From positions 1-39,316 of the IMG/VR virus record IMGVR_UViG_3300046648_000376: a stretch of DNA of 39,316 nt. One strand, given 5' to 3'. Source of the stretch: a virus. The notes below the pieces were generated by a model that was given only the letters and a program-made list of their open reading frames with translations, searched no databases and was not told where the DNA came from. Positions 5,928 to 27,350 of this stretch are shown in pieces. Numbering within the stretch: the first letter of the stretch is position 1; each line of letters opens with the position of its first letter. The translations under genes and the position numbers were made by a program.

Positions 5928-5934
5928 CGCAGCG

Positions 5935-5993
5935 ATGCTGCCGCTCGCGCGTGAGGTTCGGAACTGCGCGAGCCTGTAGATGCTTATAGGACA
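5935..5993 (-). promoter_or_regulatory. Ogr-dependent late promoter PP
   Basis: On the minus strand: TGT-N13-ACA (5993 down to 5975), then 34 bases, then CAGCAT (5940-5935) as a -10-like box. Spacing is identical to the candidates before O, V and FI. The predicted start lies 0-1 base before the terminase ATG. Confidence 0.75.
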
Positions 5994-6061
5994 GACCGAA
6001 AGCCGGTTTGAACTAGCTCAAAATCGGCCTTCTCTGAAAATATACAAGAGAGGGAATGAGC

Positions 6062-7237
6062 TTATTCCTCTTCGTCGGCAGTATAAATAATGCCGACATT
6101 TGCGGTGTAGTCACCTGTCCGACCTGCCACTTGACTCATGATGCCCTCTGGAGTGTCGTCGCGGAAATTCACGATATGCCCAACCAATACGCCGTCATCA
6201 GTAAACTCGGCTTCCTCGCTGTCCATCCACTCATCAAGCTCTTCGGGAGTTAGATTTACTTCAGCGGCTAAAAGCTCCTCGAAAGTTTCTTGATTTCGTG
6301 CCCCTTCGCTTGGATATAAAACGGAGTCATATTTAGCAGGGAGCAGTGCAAACTCGCCCCACCCAAGGTTACTGACGGACAAACCAGTCCCATTCCGAGA
6401 AACAGCACCGTACATCATCAAAACTCGGCCAATTGCAGCCTCTGTGATTTTGTGTTCTGCAGAATCGCGCACGGTCATCTTCAACGTAAAGTCTTGATAA
6501 TCGCTTTCGTTATTATACTCAAGACGCGTCATTTGAATATTAGTTGGATTGCCATCACCCATTAAACGGATTCGTTTGATCCGACCATAATAAAGCTTTG
6601 GCTTTTCATTAATCTCTAAGACTCTGGATACATCGACTAACGCATCACTTAGCAGCTGAGGATATTGAGCCTCAGGGAGATAATAGTATTTATGATAATT
6701 CTTATCAAAGTTAATACAGAGCCCGCGCACCGTCGTGATACGGCTCGGAAGCTTTATCTGTGATCCGTTGTGTCGCCGAATAGGGACTTCCGCGAGCTCG
6801 CCATCAATATCCTCAACAACTGGCCCGGTATATATCTCACCGGGCAGTAGAGGTGCAACTGGCTTATTCTTCATAAAGCTTTTGACTACGACCAGTAACT
6901 TATCATCTACAGCTTGCTTCGCTTCTTCTTCATCTGTGAATCTCATGCCATCCCGTTTCTTCACCCGCAGTCCACAAGGCGGCTTATGCTTTCGGCTATG
7001 CGCGAAAAAAGCAGCACGACCATTTGAATCTTTGTCACCTTCTTCGGGTGAGCGAAAAAGACCAACACAGCATTCAGGGCAAAAAATCGATCCCTTCATC
7101 TCATTCTGGTATTCGGACGTCAGGATCGACTGAGCGGATGCGCGAAGAACAGTTTTATCCCCAACTCCATACACCCAGCCGGGGAGATAGTATGCAAACT
7201 TGATTCGATTGCTGTCCGACTTGTTCAAAACTTCCAT
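6062..7237 (-). CDS. cargo protein with a CoiA-like zinc motif, unknown function
   Basis: 391 aa from the ATG at 7237, chosen because AAAGGA lies 7 bases upstream; an upstream in-frame ATG at 7309 lacks a ribosome site. Residues 53-88 carry FCPEC (Cys53, Cys56), then AFFAHS (His80) and Cys88, resembling the N-terminal zinc/nuclease-like motif of CoiA-type proteins. The rest is acidic and unrecognised, with no membrane segment. The gene is clearly more AT-rich than its neighbours. It sits precisely between the two divergent late promoters PP and PO, where P2 has no gene, so it is a cargo insertion with its own expression. A phage-defence role is plausible but inferred from position only. Confidence 0.65.
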   Translation of the reverse strand: MEVLNKSDSNRIKFAYYLPGWVYGVGDKTVLRASAQSILTSEYQNEMKGSIFCPECCVGLFRSPEEGDKDSNGRAAFFAHSRKHKPPCGLRVKKRDGMRFTDEEEAKQAVDDKLLVVVKSFMKNKPVAPLLPGEIYTGPVVEDIDGELAEVPIRRHNGSQIKLPSRITTVRGLCINFDKNYHKYYYLPEAQYPQLLSDALVDVSRVLEINEKPKLYYGRIKRIRLMGDGNPTNIQMTRLEYNNESDYQDFTLKMTVRDSAEHKITEAAIGRVLMMYGAVSRNGTGLSVSNLGWGEFALLPAKYDSVLYPSEGARNQETFEELLAAEVNLTPEELDEWMDSEEAEFTDDGVLVGHIVNFRDDTPEGIMSQVAGRTGDYTANVGIIYTADEEE

Positions 7238-7339
7238 TTCAAAATCCTTTCTGAAAACAACCACATTATGTATTTTCACTGAGCATGGATAGTGGCACAT
7301 ATGCATCATTTGTAAAACTTATTAGCTGTCCCGACTCCT

Positions 7340-7398
7340 TGTGTCTCCCTTCCTTACAACCCCGACTGATTGCCCCGACGCGCGCGCGTCCCGAACAT
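7340..7398 (+). promoter_or_regulatory. Ogr-dependent late promoter PO
   Basis: TTGT-N13-ACAA (TGT 7340-7342, ACA 7356-7358), then 34 bases, then GAACAT (7393-7398). The predicted start near 7405 gives a leader of about 50 bases before gene O. Same architecture as the P, V and FI promoters. Confidence 0.75.
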
Positions 7399-7457
7399 GC
7401 CCTCATCGCAACGCACCGCAACCCAAGCGTGCGTCAACCGCCTTGAGGGCTTCAGGC

Positions 7458-8291
7458 ATGAAGAAATTTCGCAGCAAATGGTTCCGGGTCGCCGTCGAGG
7501 GCGCGACCACCGATGGTCGTCGTATTGAGCGTGAATGGATCGAGCAGATGGCGTCCAGTTATGACCGCAGCAAGTACGGCGCCCGGGTCTGGATGGAACA
7601 CATTCGCGGCACGCTGCCCGACTCCCCGTTCCGCGCTTATGGCGACATCCTTGCGGTAAAAGCCGAAGACGTCGAAATAGACGGCAAAAAAATTCATGCA
7701 CTGTTCGCCCAGATCGAGCCGACCGATGACCTGGTGAGCATGGTCAACAAGCTCAAGCAGAAGATCTTCACCAGCATCGAAGTGCGCGAGAAGTTTGCCG
7801 ACACCGGCAAGGCCTACCTAATGGGCTTGGGCGTCACCGATACCCCCGCCAGCCTGGGCACAGAAATGCTCGCGTTTTCTGCTCAGCATCCCGACGCCAG
7901 CCCGCTCAAGGCACGCAAACAGTCCCCGGACAACCTGTTCACCGTTGCTGAAGAAACCGAACTCGTCTTCGAAGAGTACGAAGAAAAGCCCAGCCTCGGC
8001 GCCCAGCTATTCAGCAAGGTGCAGGAGTTGCTCAAAGGCAAGCAGACCAAGGATGACAACGAATTCGGGGCCATCGGCCAAGCGGTCGAAGCCATCGCCG
8101 AGCATGGCAAAGATCTCGCCGAGCAGATCACCGTCGCACATACGAATCACGGAGAGCTCAGCAGCCAGGTCCAGCAACTGAGCACCGACTTGTGCGAGCT
8201 CAAATCCATCTTGAGCAAAACCCAAGATCACAACCAGATCAAGCGCCCACCGGTAACCGGCAGCGGCAATCAAGCCCTGGCGCAATTCTGA
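7458..8291 (+). CDS. O: capsid scaffolding protein / serine protease (P2 gpO)
   Basis: 277 aa. It acts as internal scaffold for procapsid assembly and as the maturation protease that cuts capsid, scaffold and portal. With the start at 7458 (GAGGG 8 bases upstream) the protein begins KKFRSKWFRVAVEGATTDG. The catalytic residues known in P2 gpO (Asp19, His48, Ser107) then fall at Asp19, His48 and Ser106. The C-terminal half (about residues 170-260) is charged and helical, as expected for the scaffold part. It is the first gene of the O-S late operon. An earlier in-frame start at 7341 would put the ATG inside the promoter and is rejected. Confidence 0.95.
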   Translation: MKKFRSKWFRVAVEGATTDGRRIEREWIEQMASSYDRSKYGARVWMEHIRGTLPDSPFRAYGDILAVKAEDVEIDGKKIHALFAQIEPTDDLVSMVNKLKQKIFTSIEVREKFADTGKAYLMGLGVTDTPASLGTEMLAFSAQHPDASPLKARKQSPDNLFTVAEETELVFEEYEEKPSLGAQLFSKVQELLKGKQTKDDNEFGAIGQAVEAIAEHGKDLAEQITVAHTNHGELSSQVQQLSTDLCELKSILSKTQDHNQIKRPPVTGSGNQALAQF

Positions 8292-8330
8292 CCTGACGGC
8301 CCGAACAGCCAGCCTCTACCGGAGAATCCC

Positions 8331-9365
8331 ATGCGTAATGACACTCGAAAACTCTACACCGGCTACCTTGGCCAAGTCGCAAAACTCAACGGCGTTGACT
8401 CGGCCGGCGCCACTTTTAACGTGGACCCGACCATTCAGCAACGGCTAGAAACCAAGATTCAGGAGTCGAGTGAATTCCTGACCAAGATCAACATCATTGG
8501 CGTCGACGAGCAGGAAGGGGAAAAGGTGGGTCTCGGCGTCGGCGGCACCGTCGCTAGCCGAACCAACACCAGCGTGCAAGCCAGAACGCCACGAAGCATC
8601 GGCACCCTGTCCGACGATAAATACAAAACTGAGCAAACAGATTTCGATACCTTCGTCAGCTACAAGCAGCTCGACGCCTGGGCGAAATTTCCCGATTTCC
8701 AGACCCGGCTTTCGAGCGCCATCGCCCAGCGACAAGCTCTCGACCGCATCCAGATCGGCTTTTACGGCACCACCGCGGCTGAGCAAACCGATCGCACTGC
8801 GCACCCCCTGCTCGAAGACGTGAACATCGGCTGGCTCCAACAATACCGAACTCATGCACCGGATCGGGTGCTGAAAGAGGGCGGAACCGCCGGCAAGATC
8901 AGTATCGGCAAAACCGGTGACTTCAAAAACATTGATGCCATGGTGTATGACGCCATCCAGCTACTGGACCCTTGGTACCGCCGCAACCCCGGACTGGTGG
9001 TAATGACCGGCCGTGAGCTCGTGCATGACAAGTTCCTGGCCCTGGTCAACAACGACCAGGACGCCACCAACAAGCTGGCAAGCGACTTGATCATCTCGCA
9101 GCGCCGCGTGGGCGGGTTGCCGCTTTACGAGGTGCCGTACATGCCGGAAGGCACGATCCTCATTACGACCTTCAGCAATTTGTCGGTGTACTGGCAGATC
9201 GGAGCCCGTCGTCGCTACATCAAGGAGGAGCCCGACTGGAACCGGGTCAGCAACTTCGAATCCTCGAACGAAGCCTACGTGGTCGAGGAATACGGCATGG
9301 GCTGCCTACTGGAAAATATCGCGCCCGCCGACACGGAAGAACCCGCGCCAGTGGACGAGGGCTAA
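8331..9365 (+). CDS. N: major capsid protein (P2 gpN)
   Basis: 344 aa, close to P2 gpN (357 aa); HK97-fold subunit of the T=7 head. The N-terminal motif MRNDTRKLYTGYLGQVAKLNG is typical of the family, and the first 30 or so residues are expected to be removed by gpO. GGAGA lies 6 bases before the ATG, a strong ribosome site fitting high expression. It lies 39 bases after O and 3 bases before M. Confidence 0.95.
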   Translation: MRNDTRKLYTGYLGQVAKLNGVDSAGATFNVDPTIQQRLETKIQESSEFLTKINIIGVDEQEGEKVGLGVGGTVASRTNTSVQARTPRSIGTLSDDKYKTEQTDFDTFVSYKQLDAWAKFPDFQTRLSSAIAQRQALDRIQIGFYGTTAAEQTDRTAHPLLEDVNIGWLQQYRTHAPDRVLKEGGTAGKISIGKTGDFKNIDAMVYDAIQLLDPWYRRNPGLVVMTGRELVHDKFLALVNNDQDATNKLASDLIISQRRVGGLPLYEVPYMPEGTILITTFSNLSVYWQIGARRRYIKEEPDWNRVSNFESSNEAYVVEEYGMGCLLENIAPADTEEPAPVDEG

Positions 9366-9368
9366 GCG

Positions 9369-10070
9369 ATGGTGCTCAGCCTTGCTCAAGCACACCAGCG
9401 CCGCGCACGCGCGGCAATGGATTCGGCCAAAAAAGCGCCGCAACAATCCATGGCCGGTGCAACGGCTTACGAACATCAGCTTAACCAGCTCCTGCAGGAT
9501 CGGCTGCGCTTGAAGTCGATTCAGTCCAACGAAGGCAAGGCAGCACTCAAACTGCAGCTCTTGCCCGAATACATCCCCTACGTAACAGGCGTGATCGAGG
9601 CCGGCAACGGGGCTCAGGATGACGTCATGACCACCGTCATGGTCTGGCGCATCGACGCCGGCGACTACCGTGGCGCGTTGGACATTGCCGGCTATGTGCT
9701 CAAACACGGCTTGATCATGCCCGATCGCTTCGAGCGCACGACCGGCTGCCTGGTTGCGGAGGAGATCGCCACTGCGGCGCTGAAGACACAAAAGGCGGGC
9801 GGCACATTTGACCGGAACATCCTGTATCGCACCGCTGAACTGACTGAAGAGCAGGACATGCCTGATCAGGCACGGGCAAAGCTTTACCTCGCCACCGGCC
9901 GCGCCACCCTAGACGGTATCAGCGCCGAATTGCCGGGCCAGCCCGGACAGATTCAAGCGGGTATCGATCTGCTCAGACGCGCCATTGCACTGCATGACAG
10001 CTGCGGCGGCAAAAAAGACCTGGAGAGCGCCGAGCGCCTCCTGAAAAAACACGCTGCACCCGCCGTTTAA
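9369..10070 (+). CDS. M: terminase small subunit / endonuclease (P2 gpM)
   Basis: 233 aa, the family's usual length. It forms the packaging complex with gpP and is thought to recognise and cut cos. Recognisable family segments are LLPEYIPYVTGV (about residues 57-70), VMVWRIDAGD and ALDIAGYVLKHGL. The gene starts 3 bases after the capsid stop, so the two are probably translated in step. Confidence 0.93.
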   Translation: MVLSLAQAHQRRARAAMDSAKKAPQQSMAGATAYEHQLNQLLQDRLRLKSIQSNEGKAALKLQLLPEYIPYVTGVIEAGNGAQDDVMTTVMVWRIDAGDYRGALDIAGYVLKHGLIMPDRFERTTGCLVAEEIATAALKTQKAGGTFDRNILYRTAELTEEQDMPDQARAKLYLATGRATLDGISAELPGQPGQIQAGIDLLRRAIALHDSCGGKKDLESAERLLKKHAAPAV

Positions 10071-10187
10071 CGGCACCCAGCGACCCGAGCGTCCCCACGC
10101 ACCCCGCCGGCTCGAGGCGGATCGGTCAGGCCCCACCGCCGGACCGCAAAGCCTCGACCACCGGCGACCTATTTTCGAGTGCAGTCC

Positions 10188-10649
10188 ATGAGCGCGTTTG
10201 TAGCCAGCGGCACAGTCGATAGCGGCATTATCAACACCGACCCGTTCTGGCCGACGATCGACCTGGACAACATGCGGGCCACCCTGCGCATCGACGCGAG
10301 CGTCACCCCGGCTCGCCTGGAAACCGCAGTTATCGCTGCGGCCATCACACTGAACCGCGAGCTGAGTGAATGGCGGGCCACCCAACAAGCCGCCGGTCAC
10401 GCACAGCTGGAGGACGTCCCCGGCGAGAAGGTCAATGACGTCTCCGTCCACGTTCACCTGTATCGCCGTGCGATCGAAGCGGGTACCGGCGCCGAGGTGT
10501 GTGAGCGCTACCGCTCCTACGACACCACCCACTCGGGCAACGCAGACGCTGAACGGCTCACCCCCAACATCGACGACTACCGCCGAGACCTGCGCTGGGC
10601 TGTACGCGACTTCCTCGGCCGCCCGCGCAGTACCGTGGAGTTGATCTGA
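10188..10649 (+). CDS. L: head completion/stabilisation protein (P2 gpL)
   Basis: 153 aa. It closes the filled head and forms the connector to which the tail binds. The segment NTDPFWPTIDLDNMRATLRI near the N-terminus is characteristic of the family. ATG at 10188 is preferred over a GTG nine bases upstream. A 117-base gap separates it from M, in which I see no gene. The stop codon shares a base with the start of gene X. Confidence 0.92.
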   Translation: MSAFVASGTVDSGIINTDPFWPTIDLDNMRATLRIDASVTPARLETAVIAAAITLNRELSEWRATQQAAGHAQLEDVPGEKVNDVSVHVHLYRRAIEAGTGAEVCERYRSYDTTHSGNADAERLTPNIDDYRRDLRWAVRDFLGRPRSTVELI

Positions 10650-10861
10650 TGACCACCGCCATTCGCACCCAACAACACGACACGGTAGACGCCCTTTGCT
10701 GGCGACATTACGGCCGCACAGCGGGCGTCACCGAGGCCGTGCTTGAAGCCAATCCGGGCCTGGCCGATCACGGCCCGATCCTGCCGCAAGGGATCGTCGT
10801 TAATCTGCCGGCAGCACAGCTCGCAGCACCGCAGCGGCAGATGGTGAATTTATGGGACTGA
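10649..10861 (+). CDS. X: tail protein X (P2 gpX, LysM-like)
   Basis: 70 aa, as in P2 gpX. The short protein has a LysM-like pattern: HDTVDALCWRHYG, then a central ANPGL, then ILPQGIVVNLP near the C-terminus. It is needed for tail assembly, probably at the baseplate hub. The start overlaps the L stop by one base, indicating coupling. Confidence 0.92.
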   Translation: MTTAIRTQQHDTVDALCWRHYGRTAGVTEAVLEANPGLADHGPILPQGIVVNLPAAQLAAPQRQMVNLWD

Positions 10862-10906
10862 ACCTTCCGCTAAGCAGCACTCACCCGACCGCCCTTGGAC
10901 AACGGA

Positions 10907-11230
10907 ATGAACCGCATGCCTGAACGTCCCGATACCTGGGCCTGGCTCGCTGCCTGGCTCGAAGAAAACTGGCCCGCCCTTTATGCCGGCATCCTCGCCG
11001 TAGTGATCGCGGCCCTTCGCGTCATCTACGGCGGCGGCACGTTGCGCCGGATGATGATCGAGGCCCCGCTCTGCGGAACCCTGGCGCTCGCTGCCAGCCA
11101 TGGCTTGGCACTGATCGGCATCCCCTCCGCCACCGCGCCCTTTTTCGGCGGAGTGATCGGTTTGCTGGGTGTGGAAGGTGTACGCGCAGCTGCTCAAAAG
11201 TTTTTCATCCGCAAGGTAGAACAACCATGA
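10907..11230 (+). CDS. holin
   Basis: About 107 aa with three hydrophobic segments (near residues 25-43, 55-75 and 80-100) and a charged C-terminus, the topology of a class I holin. It permeabilises the inner membrane at the time of lysis so the endolysin can reach the wall. Starts at 10907 (GGA 7 bases upstream) or 10916 are both possible; two starts a few residues apart would allow a holin/antiholin pair as in lambda S, but this cannot be decided here. Its stop overlaps the endolysin start (ATGA 11227-11230). Confidence 0.85.
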   Translation: MNRMPERPDTWAWLAAWLEENWPALYAGILAVVIAALRVIYGGGTLRRMMIEAPLCGTLALAASHGLALIGIPSATAPFFGGVIGLLGVEGVRAAAQKFFIRKVEQP

Positions 11231-12069
11231 AAACCCTACGCCATGGCGACCGCTCGCAAGCCGTTCGCCAATTGCAGAAGACGCTCAATCAGAAGGGTGC
11301 CGGATTGGTGGTCGACGGCGACTACAGCGATGCGACCGAGGCGGCGGTGCGGTCCTATCAACTGAGAGTCGGCCTCGTAGCGGACGGTGTGGCCGGGGAC
11401 AAAACACAGACCAGCCTGACCGGAGGGGACTGTGCCTTGTATCTGCGCAATAGCGACCTGGTTGCGGCCGCTTCCCGCCTCGACGTGTCGCTGAGCAGCA
11501 TTTACGCGGTCAATGAAGTGGAGTCCAGAGGGAAGGGTTTCCTGGACAACGGCAAGCCGGTAATCCTTTTCGAACGCCACATTATGTATCGCCAGCTCAC
11601 CACTCCACGCCATGAAGGCGACGATGCGGCGGCGCTTCAAGATCATGCTGATCAACTGGTCATTGGCAATCCGGCGCTGATCAACCCCAAGCCAGGCGGA
11701 TACGCTGGCGGCACCGCTGAGCATCAGCGTCTAAGCATGGCTCGCCTGATTGATGACACCGCAGCGCTGGAATCCACTTCGTGGGGCGCCTTTCAGATTA
11801 TGGGTCTGCACTGGAAGCGCCTTGGCTACGGCAGCGTGCAGGATTTCGTTGCTGCCATGAGCGAAGGGGAATCGCAGCAGTTTGACGCGTTTGCTCGGTT
11901 CATCGAGACCGACCCACAGCTTCACAAGGCACTGAAGGCCAGTAAGTGGGCTGAATTCGCCAAGCTTTATAACGGGCCGAACTATCGACGCAACCTGTAC
12001 GACATCAAACTCCGACGCGCCTTCGAGCGGCACGCGAACTGCGATTGCGGCCAAGCCGTGCCGCTATGA
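11227..12069 (+). CDS. endolysin: peptidoglycan-binding + N-acetylmuramidase
   Basis: 280 aa. Residues 5-65 form a PG_binding_1 repeat (RQLQKTLNQKGAGLVVDGDYS, with a second VADGVAGDKT half). Residues 85-275 match the DUF3380-type N-acetylmuramidase domain, with the likely catalytic Glu in AVNEVESRGKGF (about residues 95-107) and the conserved STSWGAFQIMGLHW segment near 185. It cuts glycan strands during lysis. There is no signal peptide, so it depends on the holin. It differs from P2 gpK, which lacks this domain pair. ATGA overlaps link it to genes on both sides. Confidence 0.93.
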   Translation: MKTLRHGDRSQAVRQLQKTLNQKGAGLVVDGDYSDATEAAVRSYQLRVGLVADGVAGDKTQTSLTGGDCALYLRNSDLVAAASRLDVSLSSIYAVNEVESRGKGFLDNGKPVILFERHIMYRQLTTPRHEGDDAAALQDHADQLVIGNPALINPKPGGYAGGTAEHQRLSMARLIDDTAALESTSWGAFQIMGLHWKRLGYGSVQDFVAAMSEGESQQFDAFARFIETDPQLHKALKASKWAEFAKLYNGPNYRRNLYDIKLRRAFERHANCDCGQAVPL

Positions 12070-12272
12070 TCGACTTTGATGCCGTGCGCAAACTTAAGCT
12101 GGAAGACGGGGATCTGCTTGTAGTGCCGCAATCCACTGGGCAGGAAGGCATGCGGGATCTGTCTGAAGCCCTGCGCCTCCTCGATCCAGGCTGCAAGTTT
12201 GTTGTTGTGCGGGGGCCCCTCACGCAACTCGACACTTGTGCCATGAACAGCCTCGGCTGGCACCGCGCATGA
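12066..12272 (+). CDS. small lysis-cassette protein, unknown
   Basis: 68 aa, soluble, starting with MIDFDAVRKLKLEDGDLLVV. ATGA overlaps at both ends (with endolysin at 12066 and Rz at 12269) leave little doubt that it is translated. No motif recognised; it is not hydrophobic enough to be an antiholin of the usual kind. The tight packing between endolysin and spanin suggests a role in lysis or its timing, by position only. Confidence 0.8.
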   Translation: MIDFDAVRKLKLEDGDLLVVPQSTGQEGMRDLSEALRLLDPGCKFVVVRGPLTQLDTCAMNSLGWHRA

Positions 12273-12712
12273 CAACACTGCGCCAGGCGCTTTACGGCAT
12301 TGCTCTGCTCGGTGCATTGGCGCTGCTGGTCTGGGGTCAGCAACAGCGCATCAACTTCGCCGATAAAAACGCCGAGCTCGCAACGGGTGCAGCAGCTACC
12401 GCCCGCGAAGACGCCGAGCGCAACCTCACGACCGCCAATACCCTGCAAACCACCCTGCAACAGGAACGCGACGCCCAGCGGTCTTTGCGGGTGGAGCAGG
12501 ATCGACTGCGCAGCGCCTTGGCAAAACGCGGACGAACTCTGGAGACACTTAAACGTGAAAACGCCGAACTTCGCGACTGGGCTGCTCAGTCTTTGCCTGC
12601 CACTGCTCGCCAACTGCGCGAGCGCCCCGCCCTCACCGGCGCCGACGCTTATCGTCAGTGGCTGTCCGGCAGTGGTGCCGTGCAGCCTGCCGGCGACCAG
12701 TCCGTCCAATAA
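12269..12712 (+). CDS. lysB: inner-membrane spanin (Rz / LysB-like)
   Basis: 147 aa. One N-terminal transmembrane helix (YGIALLGALALLVWG, residues 8-23) is followed by a long periplasmic coiled coil (about 30-115) rich in Ala, Glu, Gln and Arg, the hallmark of Rz i-spanins. With Rz1 it fuses inner and outer membranes in the last lysis step. The start at 12269 overlaps the previous stop (ATGA). The Rz1 gene begins inside it in the +1 frame. Confidence 0.9.
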   Translation: MTTLRQALYGIALLGALALLVWGQQQRINFADKNAELATGAAATAREDAERNLTTANTLQTTLQQERDAQRSLRVEQDRLRSALAKRGRTLETLKRENAELRDWAAQSLPATARQLRERPALTGADAYRQWLSGSGAVQPAGDQSVQ

Positions 12713-12812
12713 CGGCGCCCTGTTGAGCGACCAGGATCTCGTGGAAAACGCCTGGGCAGAATGCGCGGGGCAGATCGACATGATATATCGACATCAAGAG
12801 GCTACCCCATGA
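12555..12812 (+). CDS. lysC: outer-membrane lipoprotein spanin (Rz1 / LysC-like), nested
   Basis: 85 aa from a GTG at 12555, reading in the +1 frame of Rz and running 100 bases past its end. The N-terminus VKTPNFATGLLSLCLPLLANC is a lipoprotein signal with lipobox LANC and lipidated Cys21, followed by a Pro-rich stretch (SAPPSPAPT), as in Rz1 proteins. The stop overlaps the start of gene R (ATGA at 12809). Nested Rz/Rz1 genes are the rule in P2-like phages. Confidence 0.88.
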   Translation: MKTPNFATGLLSLCLPLLANCASAPPSPAPTLIVSGCPAVVPCSLPATSPSNNGALLSDQDLVENAWAECAGQIDMIYRHQEATP

Positions 12813-13285
12813 ACAAACCCGAAAGCCTGCGCGCCCATCTGCTCACCACCGTGGCCGAACTCAAACACAACCCCGACCGCCTCTTGATATTCGTCGACAA
12901 CGGCAAGGTCAGATGCACTGCCGCCGCTAGCCTGTCGTTCGAATACAGCTTCGATCTGCAGATCATCCTGACGGACTTCGCAGGCCACCCCGACAGCATC
13001 ATGCTGCCGATCCTCGGCTGGGTCAGCGTTCACCAGTCAGAGCTGTTGGAGAACTTCGACAAGGTCAAAAATGGCATCCAGTTCGAAGCCGATATTCTCG
13101 ACAAAAACAAGGTCGACCTCAGCCTAAGCCTGTCGCTGACAGAGCGAGTCATCGTCGGGAAGGATGATCACGGCAACGCCACTGTGAGGCATGCAGGGGA
13201 GCCGCAGCGCGTGGCCGATTACCTCGACCCGGACTGGGTACCCGGCAACCTGGGCAATACCAGTGAATGGGTGGTGCCCGAATGA
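12809..13285 (+). CDS. R: tail completion protein R (P2 gpR)
   Basis: 158 aa, matching the length of P2 gpR. The start MNKPESLRAHLLTTVAEL is typical. It acts at the head-proximal end of the tail, making it competent to join heads. The ATG overlaps the Rz1 stop and its own stop overlaps the S start. Confidence 0.92.
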   Translation: MNKPESLRAHLLTTVAELKHNPDRLLIFVDNGKVRCTAAASLSFEYSFDLQIILTDFAGHPDSIMLPILGWVSVHQSELLENFDKVKNGIQFEADILDKNKVDLSLSLSLTERVIVGKDDHGNATVRHAGEPQRVADYLDPDWVPGNLGNTSEWVVPE

Positions 13286-13746
13286 ACGACAACTTGGAGG
13301 CGTTGGAGGAATGGGCCGGAGGCCTGCTTTCGCAACTGGAGCCCGCGGCTCGAAGCAAACTCGCGCGTGAGCTGGGCCAGGCATTGCGCCGAAGCCAGCA
13401 GCAACGGATTGCGGCGCAGCGTAATCCGGACGGGTCAAAATACGTCCCTCGCAAGCAGCGCGACCTGCGCGGCAAGCAGGGACGGGTGAAACGCACAGCT
13501 CAGATGTTTAAGAAGCTGCGTACCGCAAGCCATATGAAGACGCGTGGGGATAGCAATGCCGTAACCGTGGGATTTACTGGCCGGGTTGCACGTATCGCTC
13601 GTGTGCACCAATACGGTCTTATTGACCAGATAGAACCGCAGGACTGTAACGTCCGCTATAAGCAGCGAAAGGTCCTTGGATTCACTGCAGCGGAAATAGA
13701 TCTCATCAGAGATAGACTGATATCTCATCTCAAACAGTACAGCTAA
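13282..13746 (+). CDS. S: tail completion / virion morphogenesis protein S (P2 gpS)
   Basis: 154 aa. Characteristic features are a basic middle (SQQQRIAAQRNPDGSKYVPRK), the ARVHQYGL segment near residue 112 and the C-terminal LGFTAAEIDLIRD. It works with gpR in tail completion. It is the last gene of the O-S operon and ends 10 bases before the convergent HNH-like cargo gene, with no terminator visible between them. Confidence 0.92.
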   Translation: MNDNLEALEEWAGGLLSQLEPAARSKLARELGQALRRSQQQRIAAQRNPDGSKYVPRKQRDLRGKQGRVKRTAQMFKKLRTASHMKTRGDSNAVTVGFTGRVARIARVHQYGLIDQIEPQDCNVRYKQRKVLGFTAAEIDLIRDRLISHLKQYS

Positions 13747-13756
13747 GCCAACAAAA

Positions 13757-14521
13757 CTATCTCTGAGGAAAGTCAGCCCCTCGAAGATCCTGAAGCAAGT
13801 CAGGGTGAAAATATGTGGTCTTGGTTGATGGGACCACAATCCGATTTAATGTAGAGTCAACAGGGACTCCCTTTGGCATGCCGTCCGACTCAGAGAGCCC
13901 TCGGAGAAAAGCCTTCCATTTATGCGGCGGCTCATTTTTATAAGGCGAAATTATAAAAAACCAAAAACAATTAATAGCAACCAATCGCACCATAAAACGG
14001 TCAGAAAGCACACCACTGTATGGTACTTCGCCACACCTGAGCAACTCTGGTTCTAACATCCCAATAAGATTACCCTCCGAATCAATTTGCCGCGAGGATG
14101 TCACCACCTGAAGCCTCAACATTAAGCTACCTCTGTGCGTTCCCTCCAGAATGTATTTAGTAAACTTCTTCAGATGTTTAACTGCCCTAGCATTCCCGAC
14201 GCTCCTCGCAGCATTATAAGACACCTTAAGAAACACCCTCATGAGCAAATCATAGTCGTAGTCAAAAGCCGCGTCTTCACCAGGCAAAAGATATTTTTTA
14301 AAGTTTGCATCAAACAAACTGCTGAGGTAATTGTCGAGTGCACTAAGGACCACATTATTGCATTTCTGGCATACATCTCTGATGACAGCGTCACCTTTAT
14401 AGAATTTGTTTTGGACTTTATTATAAGTAAGGAGCTCGTTAAATTTTTTGATTAAAGACGCGGGCCAAATATGTTCCTTCGTCATAACCCCACCTGCACC
14501 ACAATAAGCACACACCTTCAT
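13757..14521 (-). CDS. HNH-like endonuclease-type protein, cargo
   Basis: 254 aa from the ATG at 14521, which has GGAG 6 bases upstream; an ATG four codons earlier contains that ribosome site and is less likely. The N-terminus has the zinc-bound HNH layout: Cys4-x2-Cys7, the KEHIWP motif with His17, then Cys51-x2-Cys54 followed by two Asn. No recognisable domain after residue 60. It is markedly AT-rich and opposes the late operons, inserted between S and the V promoter, the place of orf30 in P2. It could be a homing-type nuclease, but the lack of any visible intron or duplicated target makes a cargo/defence role at least as likely. Confidence 0.7.
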   Translation of the reverse strand: MKVCAYCGAGGVMTKEHIWPASLIKKFNELLTYNKVQNKFYKGDAVIRDVCQKCNNVVLSALDNYLSSLFDANFKKYLLPGEDAAFDYDYDLLMRVFLKVSYNAARSVGNARAVKHLKKFTKYILEGTHRGSLMLRLQVVTSSRQIDSEGNLIGMLEPELLRCGEVPYSGVLSDRFMVRLVAINCFWFFIISPYKNEPPHKWKAFLRGLSESDGMPKGVPVDSTLNRIVVPSTKTTYFHPDLLQDLRGADFPQR

Positions 14522-14580
14522 TTCGGTCTCCATTTTCGATTTGAAATATAATTCTTAGTTAAACGAGAGTATTCCCTACC

Positions 14581-14639
14581 TGTATAGAGCAAAACGACAA
14601 CTGAGAGAAGCTGCGATCGCGTGGAGGCGTCGTCAACAT
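14581..14639 (+). promoter_or_regulatory. Ogr-dependent late promoter PV
   Basis: TGT-N13-ACA (14581-14583 and 14597-14599), then 34 bases, then CAACAT (14634-14639). Seven bases separate this -10-like box from the ATG of gene V, so transcription should start at about 14646-14647. Confidence 0.75.
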
Positions 14640-14646
14640 TAACGCC

Positions 14647-15249
14647 ATGAACGACCTCCCCTCCCTCGCCCGCATGCTCGAAAACCTCATCCGCTTCGGC
14701 GTCATCGCCGCTGTGCAGATGGCGCCGCCGCGTGTACAGGTCAAGACCGGCAAGCTCACCACTGCCTGGCTGCCGTGGATCGCTCTGCGCGCCGGAGCGG
14801 ACCAGGAGTGGGACCCGCCCACCGTTGACGAGCAAGTGATCCTGTTCAGTCCATCTGGCCAACTCGCCAACGGCATTGCGCTGACGGGTGTATTCAGCGA
14901 TCACATCCCGGCCAACGGTGATCGGCCAGGATTGCATCGGCGCACATACCAGGACGGCACAGTCGTCGAGTACGACAGCGTCGCGCATCACCTGAGCGCC
15001 GTACTGGTGGATGGCGGCACCACGGACCTGATCAGCTCGGGCGGAATTCATATCGTTGGCCCGATCACCCACGAAGGCGATTACACGCATCAGGGGAGTT
15101 ACACCCAGACGGGCAGCTACACCCAAACCGGCGACCAGACCGTGACGGGGACAGTCACCGTCTCAGCCGATGTCGTCGCTGCAGGCGTGAGCCTGGTCAA
15201 CCACATGCACCTGGGCAACCTCGGCGCGCCAACGAGTCCGCCGCTATGA
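14647..15249 (+). CDS. V: baseplate spike protein V (P2 gpV)
   Basis: 200 aa. An N-terminal OB-fold-like part (to about residue 85) is followed by a beta-helix with repeated GSYTQTG turns (residues 150-170). The tip has the His-x-His motif (NHMHLG, near 182-186) that binds an iron ion in P2 gpV. It forms the trimeric membrane-piercing needle under the baseplate. The start aligns with P2 gpV (LARxLxNxIRxGxI) but has no usable ribosome site: the only GGAGG is 19 bases upstream. This agrees with a leaderless transcript from PV. The stop overlaps W (ATGA). Confidence 0.95.
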   Translation: MNDLPSLARMLENLIRFGVIAAVQMAPPRVQVKTGKLTTAWLPWIALRAGADQEWDPPTVDEQVILFSPSGQLANGIALTGVFSDHIPANGDRPGLHRRTYQDGTVVEYDSVAHHLSAVLVDGGTTDLISSGGIHIVGPITHEGDYTHQGSYTQTGSYTQTGDQTVTGTVTVSADVVAAGVSLVNHMHLGNLGAPTSPPL

Positions 15250-15590
15250 ACCGCAAAACCGGCGGGGCTATCGACACCCTGGACCATATCAGCCAGTCCA
15301 TCACAGACATCCTCACCACTCGCATTGGCACCCGCGTGATGCGTCGTGAATACGGCAGCCTGCTGCCGGAGCTGGTGGACCACCCTTTCAACGACGTAAC
15401 GCGTCTGCGGGTCTACGCAAGCACGGTCATGGCGTTAATGCGCTGGGAGCCACGCATCAGCCTCAGCCGTGTCCAGTTCGTGGGCGTCAGCCTGCAAGGC
15501 GAAACCGTGATGGATCTGCAGGGGAGCGTCGTCGACAGCAACGAAGCCTTGAGCCTCAGCATCCCTCTGCAATTGGGGGGCAGCGTATGA
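15246..15590 (+). CDS. W: baseplate wedge protein W (P2 gpW, gp25-like)
   Basis: 114 aa, of the T4 gp25 / GPW family. The conserved core is RIGTRVMRREYGSLLPELVD (residues 31-50), containing the EYGS/EPRIxL pattern. It builds the inner baseplate wedge and starts sheath assembly. ATGA overlaps with V and J. Confidence 0.95.
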   Translation: MNRKTGGAIDTLDHISQSITDILTTRIGTRVMRREYGSLLPELVDHPFNDVTRLRVYASTVMALMRWEPRISLSRVQFVGVSLQGETVMDLQGSVVDSNEALSLSIPLQLGGSV

Positions 15591-16498
15591 ACACCTTCGC
15601 CGCGATTGACCTCAGCCTCCTCCCACCCCCGCAGATCGTTGAGCAGATCGATTACGAACAGATACTGGCCGAACGCAAAGCCTTCGCCTTAAGCCTCTGG
15701 CCAGAGCCTGAGCGAGCAGAAATTGCTGCACGCCTGAGTCTTGAGTCCGAGCCGCTGACCAAACTGATCGAGGAGAATGCGTACCGCGAAACCCTCTGGC
15801 GTCAGCGCGTCAATGAAGCCGCCCTGGCAAACCTGCTTGCCGCCGCGCGTGGCGCTGATCTGGAGCAGCTCGCAGCCAACTTCAACGTCAGCCGACTGGT
15901 GATTCAGCAGGGTAATTCGAGCTCTGCAGCAACGGCCGCACCGGTTATGGAGGGCGACGACAGCTTGCGCGAACGTGCGCAGATGGCATGGGAGGGTTTG
16001 AGCACTGCCGGGCCACGCAACAGCTATATTTTTCACGCCAGGGGTGCTGATGGTCGGGTGGCCGACGCCACAGCGGAAAGCCCGTCACCGGCCGTCGCGG
16101 TGGTGACTGTTCAAGGCATCGCCGGCGACGGCCACGTCGACCAATCGCTGCTGGCGATCGTCGCCGCCTACCTCAGCGACGACGATCGCCGTCCTGTCGC
16201 GGACCGCCTGACGGTCCAGAGCGCCGAGATCATCGAATACCAGGTCAGCGCTGCGATTTATCTGCTCACCAGCGGCCCGGAGTCCGAGCCCATCCTGGCC
16301 GCAGCCGAGCAGCGGCTGCTTGCCTATGTTCACCAGCGGCGTCGTTTGGGGATGGAAGTTTCCGAATCTGCAATCCATGCCGCGCTGCATGTTGAAGGCG
16401 TGCGAAAGGTCGAGCTGGATGATTGGCTCAACATCACAGCAACTGCCTATCAGGCCCCCTATTGCACCGCGGTCAACCTCTCACAGGGGGTCGAATGA
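15587..16498 (+). CDS. J: baseplate assembly protein J (P2 gpJ)
   Basis: 303 aa, the normal size. Family features: an N-terminal FAAIDLSLLPPPQIVEQIDY, a middle GNSSSAATAAPVMEGDDSLRERA region and GPRNSYIFHARGADGRVADA near 145. It forms the outer baseplate wedge with gpI. ATGA overlaps on both sides. Confidence 0.95.
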   Translation: MNTFAAIDLSLLPPPQIVEQIDYEQILAERKAFALSLWPEPERAEIAARLSLESEPLTKLIEENAYRETLWRQRVNEAALANLLAAARGADLEQLAANFNVSRLVIQQGNSSSAATAAPVMEGDDSLRERAQMAWEGLSTAGPRNSYIFHARGADGRVADATAESPSPAVAVVTVQGIAGDGHVDQSLLAIVAAYLSDDDRRPVADRLTVQSAEIIEYQVSAAIYLLTSGPESEPILAAAEQRLLAYVHQRRRLGMEVSESAIHAALHVEGVRKVELDDWLNITATAYQAPYCTAVNLSQGVE

Positions 16499-17115
16499 TG
16501 ACCGAGGCTCCGCTGCTGCCACGCAACTCAAAACAGCTGGAGAGACTGGGCGCGCAGGCGCTGGCGCAGATCCAGCGCGTGCCCATCCCTCTACGCCAAC
16601 TGGGCAATCCTGACACCTGCCCAGCTGACCTGCTGCCCTACCTGGCGTGGGCCTTTTCAGTGGATCGGTGGGACAGCAAGTGGCCAGAAGACACAAAGCG
16701 CGCGGCCATCCGTGCGGCGTATTTCATCCACTCCCGCAAGGGCACGATCGGCGCATTGCGGCGGGTGGTCGAGCCGTTGGGATACCTGATTGAGGTGTTG
16801 GAGTGGTGGCAGACCCAACCGGAAGGCGTACCCGGCACCTTCGCGCTGAAGGTTGGCGTGCTGGACACCGGCATCACAGAAGAGATGTACCAGGAACTCA
16901 CCTGGCTGATCGACGACGCGAGGCCGCTCACCCGCCACCTGACCGGGCTCGTGATCAGCCTGGCGAGCAGTGGCGGCTTTTACATGGGTGCCTGCGTTTA
17001 CGACGGTGACGAAATCGACGTGTATCCACCGCCGGCGCACGACATAAACGTCGGTGGCAGTTTCGGGATGGGCGGGCGCCAAACCTCAATTGATGCATTG
17101 GAAGTTTTCGGATGA
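16495..17115 (+). CDS. I: tail protein I (P2 gpI)
   Basis: 206 aa from the ATGATG at 16495 that overlaps the J stop. The core LLPYLAWAFSVDRWDSKWPE (about residues 42-61) followed by KRAAIRAAYFIHSRKGTIGA is diagnostic of the gpI family. It joins gpJ in the baseplate wedge and connects to the fibres. The stop overlaps the H start. Confidence 0.95.
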   Translation: MMTEAPLLPRNSKQLERLGAQALAQIQRVPIPLRQLGNPDTCPADLLPYLAWAFSVDRWDSKWPEDTKRAAIRAAYFIHSRKGTIGALRRVVEPLGYLIEVLEWWQTQPEGVPGTFALKVGVLDTGITEEMYQELTWLIDDARPLTRHLTGLVISLASSGGFYMGACVYDGDEIDVYPPPAHDINVGGSFGMGGRQTSIDALEVFG

Positions 17116-18413
17116 TTGATCAGACCTCTCAGTTCTTTGCGATCCTCACCAACGTAGGTGCCGCCAAGCAAGCGAACGCAGACGCGCTGGGCGTGGCGTG
17201 GACGATCTCGAAAATGGGGGTGGGAGATGCGAAAGGCTCAGATCCCGTGCCCGATCCTGCCCAGACACAGCTCATCAACGAACAACGCCGCGCGCCGCTC
17301 AATCAGCTCCGCGTAGACGATTCCAATAGCGCAATCATCATCGCCGAACAGGTCATACCGGCAGAGGTCGGCGGCTGGTGGATTCGAGAGATTGGGCTGT
17401 ATGACGCCGATGATGACCTGGTGGCTATCGCCAACTGCGCGCCGTCCTTCAAGCCGTTGCTGGCGCAGGGCTCGGGCCGCACGCAGATAGTGCGGATCAA
17501 CCTGCTGGTCAGCAATGCCAGCAACATCGAGCTGAAAATTGACCCCAGTGTGGTGTTGGCCTCGCGCGATTACGTCGACCGGATGCGCCTGGGCATTCTC
17601 GGAGAGCTTGCAACTCGAATCATCAACGTCAACACCTCCAAAACGCTGACCACAAAAGACATGGGGCTTGTGCTGATCGATGCATCGGCTGCCGATCTGG
17701 TGGTGCAGCTGCCTCCCGCCAATTCCAAGCTGGGCACCCGTGATGTGATCGTTCGCCGGACGGACAATCAGGGCACACGCCTGGTCATCAAGGCAGCAGG
17801 CACAGACCGGCTCAAATTCCACACTCACCTGAATCCCTACGGCTATCCGCTTTTGGTGCTCATGGGCGCGGGGGATTGGTGGCACCTGCGTAGCGATGCC
17901 AAGGGCAGCTGGTGGCCGATAGGCCGTCATGACAGCACACCATTAGGACGACCGGTTTTCGAGACGACTACGGTTTTCAATCCCGGTGGCTACGGCGCAC
18001 TTAACGGACCCACGCTGCTGCGCGCCGAGTGGCCATGGCTTTGGGATCACGCCCAAAACTCCGGGATGACTGTCCTGGAAGCGCAACGTTTGGGTAACGA
18101 AGGTGGGTGGACCGAAGGTGATGGAAACCTCACTTTCAGAGGTCCGGAAGGGCGCGGTGAGTTTTTGCGTGTGATGGATGAAGGTCGTGGAGTGGACGTC
18201 AACCGAACCGCCGGTAGCTATCAAGCACCTGAAATTCAGTCCCATGTTCACACAATGATATTACCGAGGGACTGGGGCGGATCCGTGGCAGGTAATGCGG
18301 TGCTCGGCGACCAAAACAACTATGGGTTTCAGGACGTGACCACTACTTCGACAGGGGGCGACGAAACGCGCCCCCGCAATATTGCCTATCCCGGCCGTAT
18401 AAAACTGATCTGA
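17112..18413 (+). CDS. H: tail fibre protein H
   Basis: 433 aa. Residues 1-160 match the conserved N-terminal fibre domain that docks to the baseplate (SQFFAILTNVGAAKQANADA, then WIREIGLYDADDDLVAIANC). The C-terminal third has the collar-type pattern (FRGPEGRGEFLRVMDEGRGVD, HVHTM, NIAYPGRI) typical of receptor-binding tips. It is shorter than P2 gpH, with little shaft between the two ends. It determines host range with the chaperone encoded next. Confidence 0.92.
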   Translation: MIDQTSQFFAILTNVGAAKQANADALGVAWTISKMGVGDAKGSDPVPDPAQTQLINEQRRAPLNQLRVDDSNSAIIIAEQVIPAEVGGWWIREIGLYDADDDLVAIANCAPSFKPLLAQGSGRTQIVRINLLVSNASNIELKIDPSVVLASRDYVDRMRLGILGELATRIINVNTSKTLTTKDMGLVLIDASAADLVVQLPPANSKLGTRDVIVRRTDNQGTRLVIKAAGTDRLKFHTHLNPYGYPLLVLMGAGDWWHLRSDAKGSWWPIGRHDSTPLGRPVFETTTVFNPGGYGALNGPTLLRAEWPWLWDHAQNSGMTVLEAQRLGNEGGWTEGDGNLTFRGPEGRGEFLRVMDEGRGVDVNRTAGSYQAPEIQSHVHTMILPRDWGGSVAGNAVLGDQNNYGFQDVTTTSTGGDETRPRNIAYPGRIKLI

Positions 18414-18420
18414 GGAATCC

Positions 18421-18984
18421 ATGACTATTTATCTCTTGGACAACATGAATATCTGCACCGGGCCTGTTGAGGTTCCCATGATCCCAGGCCTTGGGCCGCA
18501 GTTGCCGAGTAATGCCCTAGAACTTGACGAGATTCTACCGCTGCCTGCCCCGGGCAACGTCTGGATCTGGCAGAACGGCTGCTTGATAGAAATCGCTGAC
18601 CAGCGTGGCGTCGCTTACCAGACAGACACCGGGAAGGAAGAACCATGGACCGAGCTCGGCGAACTGCCTGAGCACCTGACCTTCATGCCACGGCCCGGCA
18701 CACATTACGTCTGGACCGACCAAGGCTGGAAACTGGACGAAGAGGCAGAGCAAGCGGCGTTGGTAGCTCGCAGATTGGGCGAGCGAGACGGCTTTTTATA
18801 TGAGGCTGGCCTGCGCATCGCGCCTTTGCAAGACGCCATGGACCTCAATAGAGCCACTGACGAAGAAGAGGCCGCATTGTTGCAGTGGAAGGGCTATCGC
18901 GTGGATCTCAACCGCATTGAAGATCAGGAAGGCTTCCCGTCAGACATCCAATGGCCGGCCCCGCCCGAGACCCGCTATTCCTAG
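18421..18984 (+). CDS. G: tail fibre assembly chaperone (P2 gpG type)
   Basis: 187 aa, Caudo_TAP-like, needed for trimerisation of the fibre. The middle has NVWIWQNGCLIEIADQRG and the end IQWPAPPETRYS. GAGGA lies 4 bases before the ATG, 7 bases after the H stop. The C-terminal region (about 115-175) diverges from the more usual family ending, as expected for a partner matched to its own fibre. Confidence 0.88.
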   Translation: MTIYLLDNMNICTGPVEVPMIPGLGPQLPSNALELDEILPLPAPGNVWIWQNGCLIEIADQRGVAYQTDTGKEEPWTELGELPEHLTFMPRPGTHYVWTDQGWKLDEEAEQAALVARRLGERDGFLYEAGLRIAPLQDAMDLNRATDEEEAALLQWKGYRVDLNRIEDQEGFPSDIQWPAPPETRYS

Positions 18985-18997
18985 TAAAGAAAGAGGA

Positions 18998-19033
18998 CGG
19001 TCAGCCCAGGTGTTCCAGCACCTGAGCTGACCG
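18998..19033 (+). promoter_or_regulatory. intercistronic hairpin after G
   Basis: CGGTCAGC...CAGGTG pairs with CACCTG...GCTGACCG (18998-19012 with 19019-19033; one C-A mismatch and a 6-base loop). There is no T run after it, so it is not a classic terminator. It could slow polymerase or protect the 3' end of the fibre mRNA ahead of the Com/methyltransferase genes. Confidence 0.5.
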
Positions 19034-19124
19034 CCAGTCCGCAGCACCAACCTGCAAACCAGCCAAGGCCCTCTGCTCACGCGCGAGCGACAGGGAGCCT
19101 ATCAGATGCCGAAGGTTTGCCTAG

Positions 19125-19319
19125 ATGATTGAAATACGCTGTGGCCAATGCGCCCGCAAGCTGGCTGCGGCCAGCGGCTTCACCGAACTGCAAATCAAGT
19201 GCCCGCGCTGTCGGACGCTTAATCACCTGAAGGCCCCGAGCCTCCTGCCAGAACGCCCAGAGCATCCCACCACCGGAACATCAGGATGCCCACCATTGGA
19301 AGCCTGTTCGCAGGCATAG
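19125..19319 (+). CDS. com: Com-like zinc-finger translational regulator
   Basis: 64 aa. Residues 1-34 match the Mu Com family: IEIRCGQC (Cys6, Cys9), then IKCPRCRTLNHL (Cys26, Cys29), a four-cysteine zinc knuckle. In Mu, Com binds the mom mRNA and opens a stem-loop that hides the mom start. Here com overlaps the methyltransferase start by 34 bases (19286-19319), the same arrangement with a different modification enzyme. The C-terminal 30 residues are low in structure and largely dictated by the overlap. AAGG lies 9 bases before the ATG. Confidence 0.85.
   Translation: MIEIRCGQCARKLAAASGFTELQIKCPRCRTLNHLKAPSLLPERPEHPTTGTSGCPPLEACSQA
19262..19315 (+). promoter_or_regulatory. mRNA stem-loops over the methyltransferase start
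   Basis: GCATCC (19262-19267) is complementary to GGATGC (19284-19289), which contains the methyltransferase ATG at 19286; the ribosome site GGAA (19275-19278) lies in the loop. A second hairpin, GCCTG-TTCG-CAGGC (19302-19315), has a UUCG loop. Together they resemble the start-sequestering structure that Com opens in Mu. Folding was judged by eye only. Confidence 0.55.
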
Positions 19320-20137
19320 GAGGCTTTGACCTTGGATTCGAAAACGCAGGCTTCAGCACCGCTTGGCAAGTTGAACTCAACCCGGTTAACCGGGCTGTCC
19401 TTGCCGATCGATTTCCCCACGCACGGCGATTCGAGGACGTGCGCCAGTGCGGAGCTCACAACCTCAGCCCTGTCGACGTTATCACCGGCGGATTCCCCTG
19501 CCAGGACATCAGCCTCGCCGGCGCCCGCGCCACCAACAAAGACAAACGCGGCCTGCGTGGTGAGCGCAGCGGTTTATTCTGGGAAGTCATACGCATCCTC
19601 AAGGAAATACAACCCCGCTGGGTGGTGCTTGAAAATGTCGTTAACCTGCTCGCTGTCAACGATAGCGAAGACTTTGAGACAGTCATCAGGGCCCTTGCGG
19701 ACTGCGGGTATGTGGGATGCTGGCGAGTGCTTAATGCTCAGTATTTCGGAGTCCCCCAGCAGCGTCGTCGCCTATTCCTGGTCGCAGGTCTTGGACGAAT
19801 GCCCCCCATGGAGCTCCTGGCTGACGCCGCGCCAGTGGACGCAATATCTCCAGCGTCTAGCGCGACACCCTGGCCAGTGCCGGCGGATGCCTGGGCTGCC
19901 AATACTCTCCTGGCAAACAAGGCCGGATCGCAGATCGCTCTGGGCTGTACCACTTTCATCGCTGAACCGAACCGATGGGATCAGATGGTTGAGCGGCAGC
20001 GAGCGTCTGACGATCATGGGCTTTGCCTGGGACTGGATGCGGCCAACCTTGCAGAAGCTTTCAGTGCCGGAAACGCCGTCGTGCCGCAAATCGCGGAGTG
20101 GATAGCAAGAAAGCTGATGAAAGTGGAACCGCTCTGA
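19286..20137 (+). CDS. DNA cytosine-5 methyltransferase (Dcm type)
   Basis: 283 aa, short for the family. Motif I is SLFAGIGGFDLGF (6-18), motif IV GGFPCQDIS with catalytic Cys72, motif VI VLENVV (114-119), motif VIII QQRRRLFLV (158-166) and motif X AGNAVVPQIAEW (261-272). It transfers methyl groups from SAM to cytosine C5; the specificity cannot be read. The likely purpose is protecting phage DNA from host restriction late in infection, as Mom does in Mu. It is expressed after the fibre genes and probably controlled by Com. The target-recognition segment (about 170-255) is weak in this frame, and the expected GF..DW signature appears in the +1 frame instead (see findings). Confidence 0.85.
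   Translation: MPTIGSLFAGIGGFDLGFENAGFSTAWQVELNPVNRAVLADRFPHARRFEDVRQCGAHNLSPVDVITGGFPCQDISLAGARATNKDKRGLRGERSGLFWEVIRILKEIQPRWVVLENVVNLLAVNDSEDFETVIRALADCGYVGCWRVLNAQYFGVPQQRRRLFLVAGLGRMPPMELLADAAPVDAISPASSATPWPVPADAWAANTLLANKAGSQIALGCTTFIAEPNRWDQMVERQRASDDHGLCLGLDAANLAEAFSAGNAVVPQIAEWIARKLMKVEPL
19326..20105 (+). CDS. possible second coding frame within the methyltransferase
   Basis: An open frame of up to 259 codons in the +1 phase of the methyltransferase. Most of its first half looks like a GC-rich shadow (Ser/Ala/Pro-rich). The last 100 residues, from about 19800, read as ordinary protein (WSSWLTPRQWTQYLQRLAR, then WLSGSERLTIMGFAWDWM). They resemble the segment between target recognition and motif X of C5 methyltransferases. 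By my hand count, third-position GC from 19800 to 20105 is higher in this frame (about 70%) than in the annotated frame (about 60%). No clear ribosome site. It may be dual coding, or a trace of two compensating frameshifts. Confidence 0.3.
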   Translation: MTLDSKTQASAPLGKLNSTRLTGLSLPIDFPTHGDSRTCASAELTTSALSTLSPADSPARTSASPAPAPPTKTNAACVVSAAVYSGKSYASSRKYNPAGWCLKMSLTCSLSTIAKTLRQSSGPLRTAGMWDAGECLMLSISESPSSVVAYSWSQVLDECPPWSSWLTPRQWTQYLQRLARHPGQCRRMPGLPILSWQTRPDRRSLWAVPLSSLNRTDGIRWLSGSERLTIMGFAWDWMRPTLQKLSVPETPSCRKSRSG

Positions 20138-20159
20138 CTTAGGGCGTGGGTCCGCCACC

Positions 20160-20218
20160 TGTAGTCGCACCCGCTACAACACTGCCCGCTCGCGAAGCCG
20201 GCGCGCGCGCGGCAGCCT
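20160..20218 (+). promoter_or_regulatory. Ogr-dependent late promoter PF
   Basis: TGT-N13-ACA (20160-20162 and 20176-20178), then 34 bases, then CAGCCT (20213-20218). The predicted start near 20225 leaves a leader of about 30 bases before the sheath gene. Same architecture as the other three late promoters. Confidence 0.75.
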
Positions 20219-20254
20219 GTGCACAGTCTTTCAACTACAGCACAGGCGCTCTTC

Positions 20255-27348: not shown

Positions 27349-27350
27349 AG

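Follow-up and report, generated by a model that had tools for sequence, protein, structure and literature searches.

How does a temperate phage of the P2 family mark the starts of its late operons, and does the DNA at each start also bear on the translation of the first gene behind it? We addressed this with the IMG/VR virus record IMGVR_UViG_3300046648_000376, of which positions 1 to 39,316 (39,316 nucleotides) were analysed and are called the window below. The window is a P2-like Pseudomonas temperate phage with four late promoters. Its closest named relatives are in Pseudomonas, and gpP, gpO, gpN, gpV, gpFI, and the late activator Ogr are all encoded in it. A first-pass annotation had described, in front of P, O, V, and FI, a TGT-N13-ACA dyad that a −10-like hexamer follows after 34 bases, and had read this as an Ogr-dependent late promoter. 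We found the pattern at all four sites exactly as described, with the same positions, strands, 13-base spacer, 34-base gap, and hexamers. Judging from sequence comparison, the four sites are almost certainly P2-type Ogr-dependent late promoters of the known kind. The region at each promoter start appears, with moderate confidence, to act in addition as a lock on translation, and the account that joins promoter and lock is, as a whole, very likely.

Geometry and conservation of the four late promoters

The promoters and the activator gene lie as follows.

5935..5993, minus strand: late promoter P; dyad 5993-5975, block at the −35 position about 5963-5958, hexamer CAGCAT 5940-5935, predicted +1 5928-5926
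7340..7398, plus strand: late promoter O; dyad 7340-7358, TTG at the −35 position (about 7370), hexamer GAACAT 7393-7398, predicted +1 7405-7407
14581..14639, plus strand: late promoter V; dyad 14581-14599, CTGC at the −35 position, hexamer CAACAT 14634-14639, predicted +1 14646-14648
20160..20218, plus strand: late promoter FI; dyad 20160-20178 (TGTA-N11-TACA), CTCG at the −35 position, hexamer CAGCCT 20213-20218, predicted +1 20225-20227
30120..30413, plus strand: ogr, late activator of the N13 type; PF04606 (E 7.7e-17), C4 zinc finger C-X2-C-X22-C-X4-C

The bare TGT-N13-ACA motif was common in the window (12 occurrences vs. 6.4 expected). The strict full pattern matched six times vs. 0.39 expected, and these matches were the four late sites, the FI palindrome in reverse, and one (at 1475) that looks like chance. 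No spacer/gap pair, or even spacer alone, was common to all four upstream regions in any of 20,000 dinucleotide shuffles. A 68-column matrix, built from relatives with the window left out, ranked the four late sites first to fourth (scores of 48, 40, 24.7, and 15.5), followed by the FI dyad reversed (7.3); exactly four sites thus stand out in the window, one each for the P, O, V, and F late operons. A whole-genome scan, proposed as a check by the first-pass annotation, was run on five genomes with related prophages. In four Pseudomonas genomes (6–7 Mb), 15 of the 22 strict matches were prophage late promoters; the Serratia genome, which carries an N12 prophage, gave no strict match.

Phage P2 (NC_001895; PP, PO, PV, and PF, with Ogr) likewise has four operons, a dyad near −55, and a NANNNT hexamer 34–35 bases from the right half-site. 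With the sequence placed on the annotated P2 sites, the gap between right half-site and −10 was 34 bases in PO and PP and 35 in PV and PF; the annotated starts lay 6–8 bases past the hexamer, 46–48 bases from the right half-site, and 55.5–57.5 bases from the dyad centre. Calibrated on P2, the +1 in the window was set 7–8 bases past the hexamer, to about one base either way, which puts the dyad centre about 56–58 bases 5' of the predicted +1 at all four sites, near −55 as first proposed. Because the P2 gap and start distances match, the geometry in the window is that of P2 with the left half-site one base farther away. P2 differs in its half-sites, which are less symmetrical: TGT-N12-CCA in PO and PF, TGG-N12-ACA in PP, and N11 in PV. 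The 12-base spacer given for P2 in the first-pass annotation holds for three promoters, the window differing at 13, but not for PV; a P2 dyad near −55 is likewise correct, but not its form as TGT...ACA.

The 34-base gap is not featureless, since the alignment of relatives revealed a third conserved block at site positions 30–34, which corresponds to the −35 position (17 bases 5' of the hexamer). This block is weak, and the hexamer (NANNNT) stands 34 bases off the half-site as in PO and PP of P2. A sigma70 consensus scan of 5900-7500 gave background only. When V and FI regions of relatives were aligned on the dyad, identity more than 10 bases 5' of it was at chance (0.25–0.27), so conservation begins at the dyad. 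The architecture is kept in dozens of relatives, at FI, O, and V. The reading as Ogr-type late promoters is thus upheld by the geometry shared with the annotated P2 sites, by this conservation, and by the presence of the activator gene. Sites, spacer clades, and conservation are read from the DNA itself; Ogr binding and the +1 positions are what we infer. As a direct query against the PDB, Ogr returned zero relatives.

In most relatives, P and O are read in opposite directions from a single palindromic dyad, and P2 likewise has an activator site common to both. The window and two relatives (L092 and L094) have separate P and O dyads about 1.3 kb apart. In the window, one long frame lies between them (5994-7339): a minus-strand frame of 415 amino acids (6062-7309) without a family match, which splits the P/O dyad arrangement. 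In the Burkholderia phages KS14 and FLC10 (L170 and L171), no TGT-Nk-[AC]CA dyad was found 5' of FI, which follows closely behind a tail-fibre gene; FI may lack a late promoter of its own in these phages.

Spacer classes and Ogr clades

About 75 of the 79 close relatives examined have the 13-base spacer upstream of FI. Upstream of O, there were 55 N13 and 6 N12 matches, and N13 was also dominant upstream of V. It occurs clade-wide, in Pseudomonas, Burkholderiaceae, and Providencia. For the Ralstonia phages phiRSA1 and phiRSY1, TGTTGT-X13-ACAACA 5' of the four late operons and an Ogr homologue have been described (PMC5694545), with the same N13 spacer as in the window; the accessible part of that account is without −10/−35 geometry, clade analysis, or remarks on start sites and hairpins. 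N13 is therefore a clade property, already reported for phiRSA1/phiRSY1 (PMC5694545), and not peculiar to the window phage. As the rule in the clade and published for phiRSY1, it marks a variant of the P2-type promoter rather than an exclusion from this type. Stenotrophomonas phage Smp131 also has an Ogr homologue (CX2CX22CX4C), four predicted late promoters, and one P/O dyad (PMC3931495). It differs in being described as N12, although its fourth site as printed spans 19 bases and would be N13 (PMC3931495).

Among 399 FI loci, pooled from several scans that overlap one another, there were two main classes with a gap of 34 bases, N12 (123) and N13 (167). The distance from the right half-site to the −10 hexamer usually stays at 34 bases across the classes. 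Wherever the V and FI sites of one Ogr type could both be assigned to N12 or N13, which was so for 84 types, the two spacers agreed in all 84. For the Ogr tree, a few types with other or ambiguous calls were left out, and the rows of the P2 clade were entered manually as N12 on the basis of the annotated site. On this tree, the P2/186-type N12 phages formed one side of a single branch with 98% support, which corresponds to 1 change vs. 36 expected for shuffled labels.

At P2 position 12, Ogr has His in 48/48 N12 proteins and in 1/64 N13 proteins; in the window, Arg stands at this position. Two N13 Ogr proteins keep the TKERY stretch of P2 and have Arg12 instead of His. As His12 tracks N12 and these two proteins carry Arg12, residue 12 is the best candidate for setting the spacer, a role suggested by correlation among protein sequences. 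To our knowledge, the division of N12 and N13 by Ogr clade and residue 12 is a new generalization.

Two further observations were made on these loci. In a Moraxellaceae metagenome-assembled genome, the spacer of the FI promoter appears to be 14 bases long, with CATCCT at the usual distance of 34 bases, which may represent a third spacer class. Two P2-type sequences (L252 and hit H7, OR820920) are labelled Chryseobacterium and Bacillus pumilus; these labels look contaminated or misassigned.

Translation starts behind the promoters

The −35 block, the leaderless starts, and the hairpin arms had no place in the first-pass annotation. The latter two involve the following features.

5925..5927, minus strand: start codon of gpP (large terminase), on the predicted +1, without Shine-Dalgarno, at the same distance in relatives
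14647..14649, plus strand: start codon of gpV, on the predicted +1, without Shine-Dalgarno
20215..20222, plus strand: 5' arm of the FI hairpin, GCCTGTGC, inside the −10 and discriminator
20240..20247, plus strand: 3' arm of the FI hairpin, GCACAGGC, covering the presumed AGG ribosome site
7399..7405, plus strand: 5' arm of the predicted O hairpin, GCCCTCA, encoded 5' of +1
7444..7450, plus strand: 3' arm of the O hairpin, TGAGGGC, containing the Shine-Dalgarno

The starts of gpO and gpFI were placed by homology at the ATG codons 7458 and 20255; the starts of the longest open reading frames, GTG 7341 inside promoter O and GTG 20219 directly 3' of promoter FI, were rejected. The identity of gpP agrees with its Terminase_5/6 domains in the domain search.

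At V, the ATG coincided with the predicted +1, 65–66 bases from the dyad start, in 135/135 N13 promoters. At P, the start codon occupied that position in 36 of 39 promoters, and the other three also have an in-frame ATG there. A Shine-Dalgarno-like sequence preceded V in 1/135 and P in 0/39 cases, and O in 47/47. The V start is likewise placed in N12 phages, and in P2 itself the annotated V transcription start is the V ATG.

At FI, the inverted repeat pairs the −10 and discriminator with the ribosome site. Across the family, the computed cost of opening this site was 12.2 kcal/mol in readthrough RNA, 5.7 in the operon's own RNA, and 6.6 in readthrough RNA with the upstream part shuffled; the difference exceeded 3 kcal in 90% of native sequences vs. 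6% with upstream shuffled. For the window, the values were 15.1 kcal/mol for readthrough RNA and 6.1 for RNA from the P2-calibrated +1, which lies past the arm. Access was gained as the computed RNA 5' end moved from −12 to 0. Exchange of −13 to −1 between phages cost 5.5 kcal and largely abolished the effect (native higher in 43/50), while exchange of −45 to −14 had little effect. Control genes of the same phages (N, M, FII, W, and U) showed differences of 0 to 0.9 kcal. The arm sequences change completely between clades and keep their complementarity. In an alignment not fitted to the helix, and counting the named helix, the covariation score was 0.241 vs. 0.129 for shuffled sequences (reached in 0/500) and 0.111 for the best slid helix; simple stem scoring supported the native pairing in 39/47. 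The covariation is a property of the alignment, and the effect on translation is what we infer from it together with the folds.

At O, the computed opening cost was 12.3 kcal/mol in readthrough vs. 6.4 in own RNA, with 88% above 3 kcal, and in the window 15.1 vs. 8.1 from the predicted +1, placed past the arm by the same calibration. Covariation is not provable here because the O arms are too alike among relatives. In sum, covariation, arm swaps, and control genes support a putative lock at FI, and arm-swap support at O is weak.

The proposed course of events is as follows. Ogr would bind TTGTA-N11-TACAA centred near −55 and recruit the polymerase of the host. The core promoter has a weak −35 block and, 34 bases past the right half-site, a degenerate −10 (NANNNT), and RNA would start 7–9 bases past the hexamer. 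At FI and O, the stretch of roughly −11 to −1 would encode a strand that hides the ribosome site in transcripts begun farther upstream. RNA begun at +1 would be without this strand (FI and O) or would open with AUG (V and P) and could be translated; RNA that runs in from elsewhere, be it an adjacent operon, an inserted gene, or the flanking DNA, would carry the hiding strand, or an internal AUG without a ribosome site. Late translation would in this way be conditional on Ogr-driven initiation. In N13 phages, the whole late regulon would then be locked twice, by Ogr for transcription and by each promoter-start region for translation of the first gene, which we consider somewhat probable.

A comparable logic is known from phage T4. 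In gene e, soc, I-TevI, and mobE of Aeh1, a stem in long transcripts hides the ribosome site. A late promoter sits where the 5' strand of this stem is encoded, and RNA from it is without that strand and is translated (PMC3014915, PMC2988022). The logic proposed for FI and O, from computed folds, would be the same. T4 differs in having its own late sigma factor and in using the device for single genes, whereas in the window the hairpin would cover two of the four operons of the Ogr regulon, the other two being leaderless. As far as the literature searched shows, with key P2 papers outside that coverage, a translation lock is new for the P2 family.

Alternative explanations, neighbouring genes, and implications

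Several findings weigh against the account given above. Spacer and Ogr type also track phage phylogeny (2 spacer changes on the FI tree, 1 on the Ogr tree), and as both trees need few changes, the cause of the spacing is not isolated as Ogr rather than phage lineage. When 24 mixed FI leaders in the full alignment were folded automatically to a consensus, no structure emerged, because the outlying clades misalign; the FI covariation appears for the named helix only; and in N12 phages the hairpin at FI is less pronounced (67% of FI; native higher in 24/34 arm swaps). The O arm swap was weak (native higher in 8/11 by folding and 3/7 by stem score). P2 differs from the window in several respects: its O promoter is without the hairpin (7.6 vs. 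7.5 kcal), its Ogr has His12 and not Arg, and its P start codon follows a leader of 24 bases that includes a Shine-Dalgarno, so that leaderless P is not family-wide. It is accordingly possible, though distinctly less probable than a lock, that there are Ogr late promoters only, the repeats at FI and O arising as a by-product where promoter and ribosome-site sequences are conserved, and the leaders of P and V being merely short. The nearly invariant O arms with their weak swap and the missing P2 hairpin fit such a by-product. It does not explain why the FI arms diverge widely and yet stay complementary, as seen in the swaps and the covariation, why control genes in the same phages are without effect, or why the V start distance is constant within one base in 135 promoters.

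The position of the FI repeat (−10 to +25), straddling the promoter start, is that of a classic operator, and the repeat could serve a repressor or a second activator as DNA rather than form an RNA hairpin. We consider this unlikely: the arms are replaced between clades with pairing kept, whereas conservation of the sequence itself would be expected of an operator, and the 3' arm sits at the ribosome site. Slightly less likely still is a transcription start about 12 bases farther upstream, which would make the hairpin an ordinary 5' stem of the normal FI leader that protects or regulates the mRNA and would give P and V short leaders. The +1 in the window phage is indeed a predicted one, but the 5' arm overlaps the conserved −10 hexamer, the annotated P2 starts fall 6–8 bases past theirs, and the P2 V start is annotated on the V ATG. 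Finally, bare TGT-N13-ACA is only about twice as frequent as expected, which would suit a coincidence of spacing among GC-rich intergenic regions or plain sigma70 promoters without a need for Ogr. That explanation is extremely improbable. Coincidence is excluded by the 20,000 shuffles and the conservation across relatives, in which the dyads are kept while the sequence just 5' of those at V and FI is random, and the −35 and −10 elements match the sigma70 consensus poorly.

Cargo-like genes adjoin two of the promoters. The one at 13757-14533, just 5' of the V dyad, encodes a minus-strand protein of unassigned function with a weak phrog_10503 match; its matches to a defence library were weak and judged to be chance. 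The one at 19286-20137, just 5' of the FI dyad, encodes a C5 cytosine methyltransferase-like protein. Two neighbouring minus-strand genes of unassigned function (26776-28232; phrog_20580 and phrog_10040) lie between the tail operon and ogr.

For the P2 family, these data give a general rule for late promoters, in which the distance from half-site to −10 is nearly fixed and the spacer is 12 or 13 bases by Ogr clade; residue 12 offers a specific candidate determinant of the spacer that can be tested. The lock, if true, would shield the late genes from transcripts that read through from adjacent operons or from inserted cargo genes, and would help to explain the tolerance of prophages for cargo genes placed right beside late operons. 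A single stretch of DNA would then double as promoter and RNA switch.

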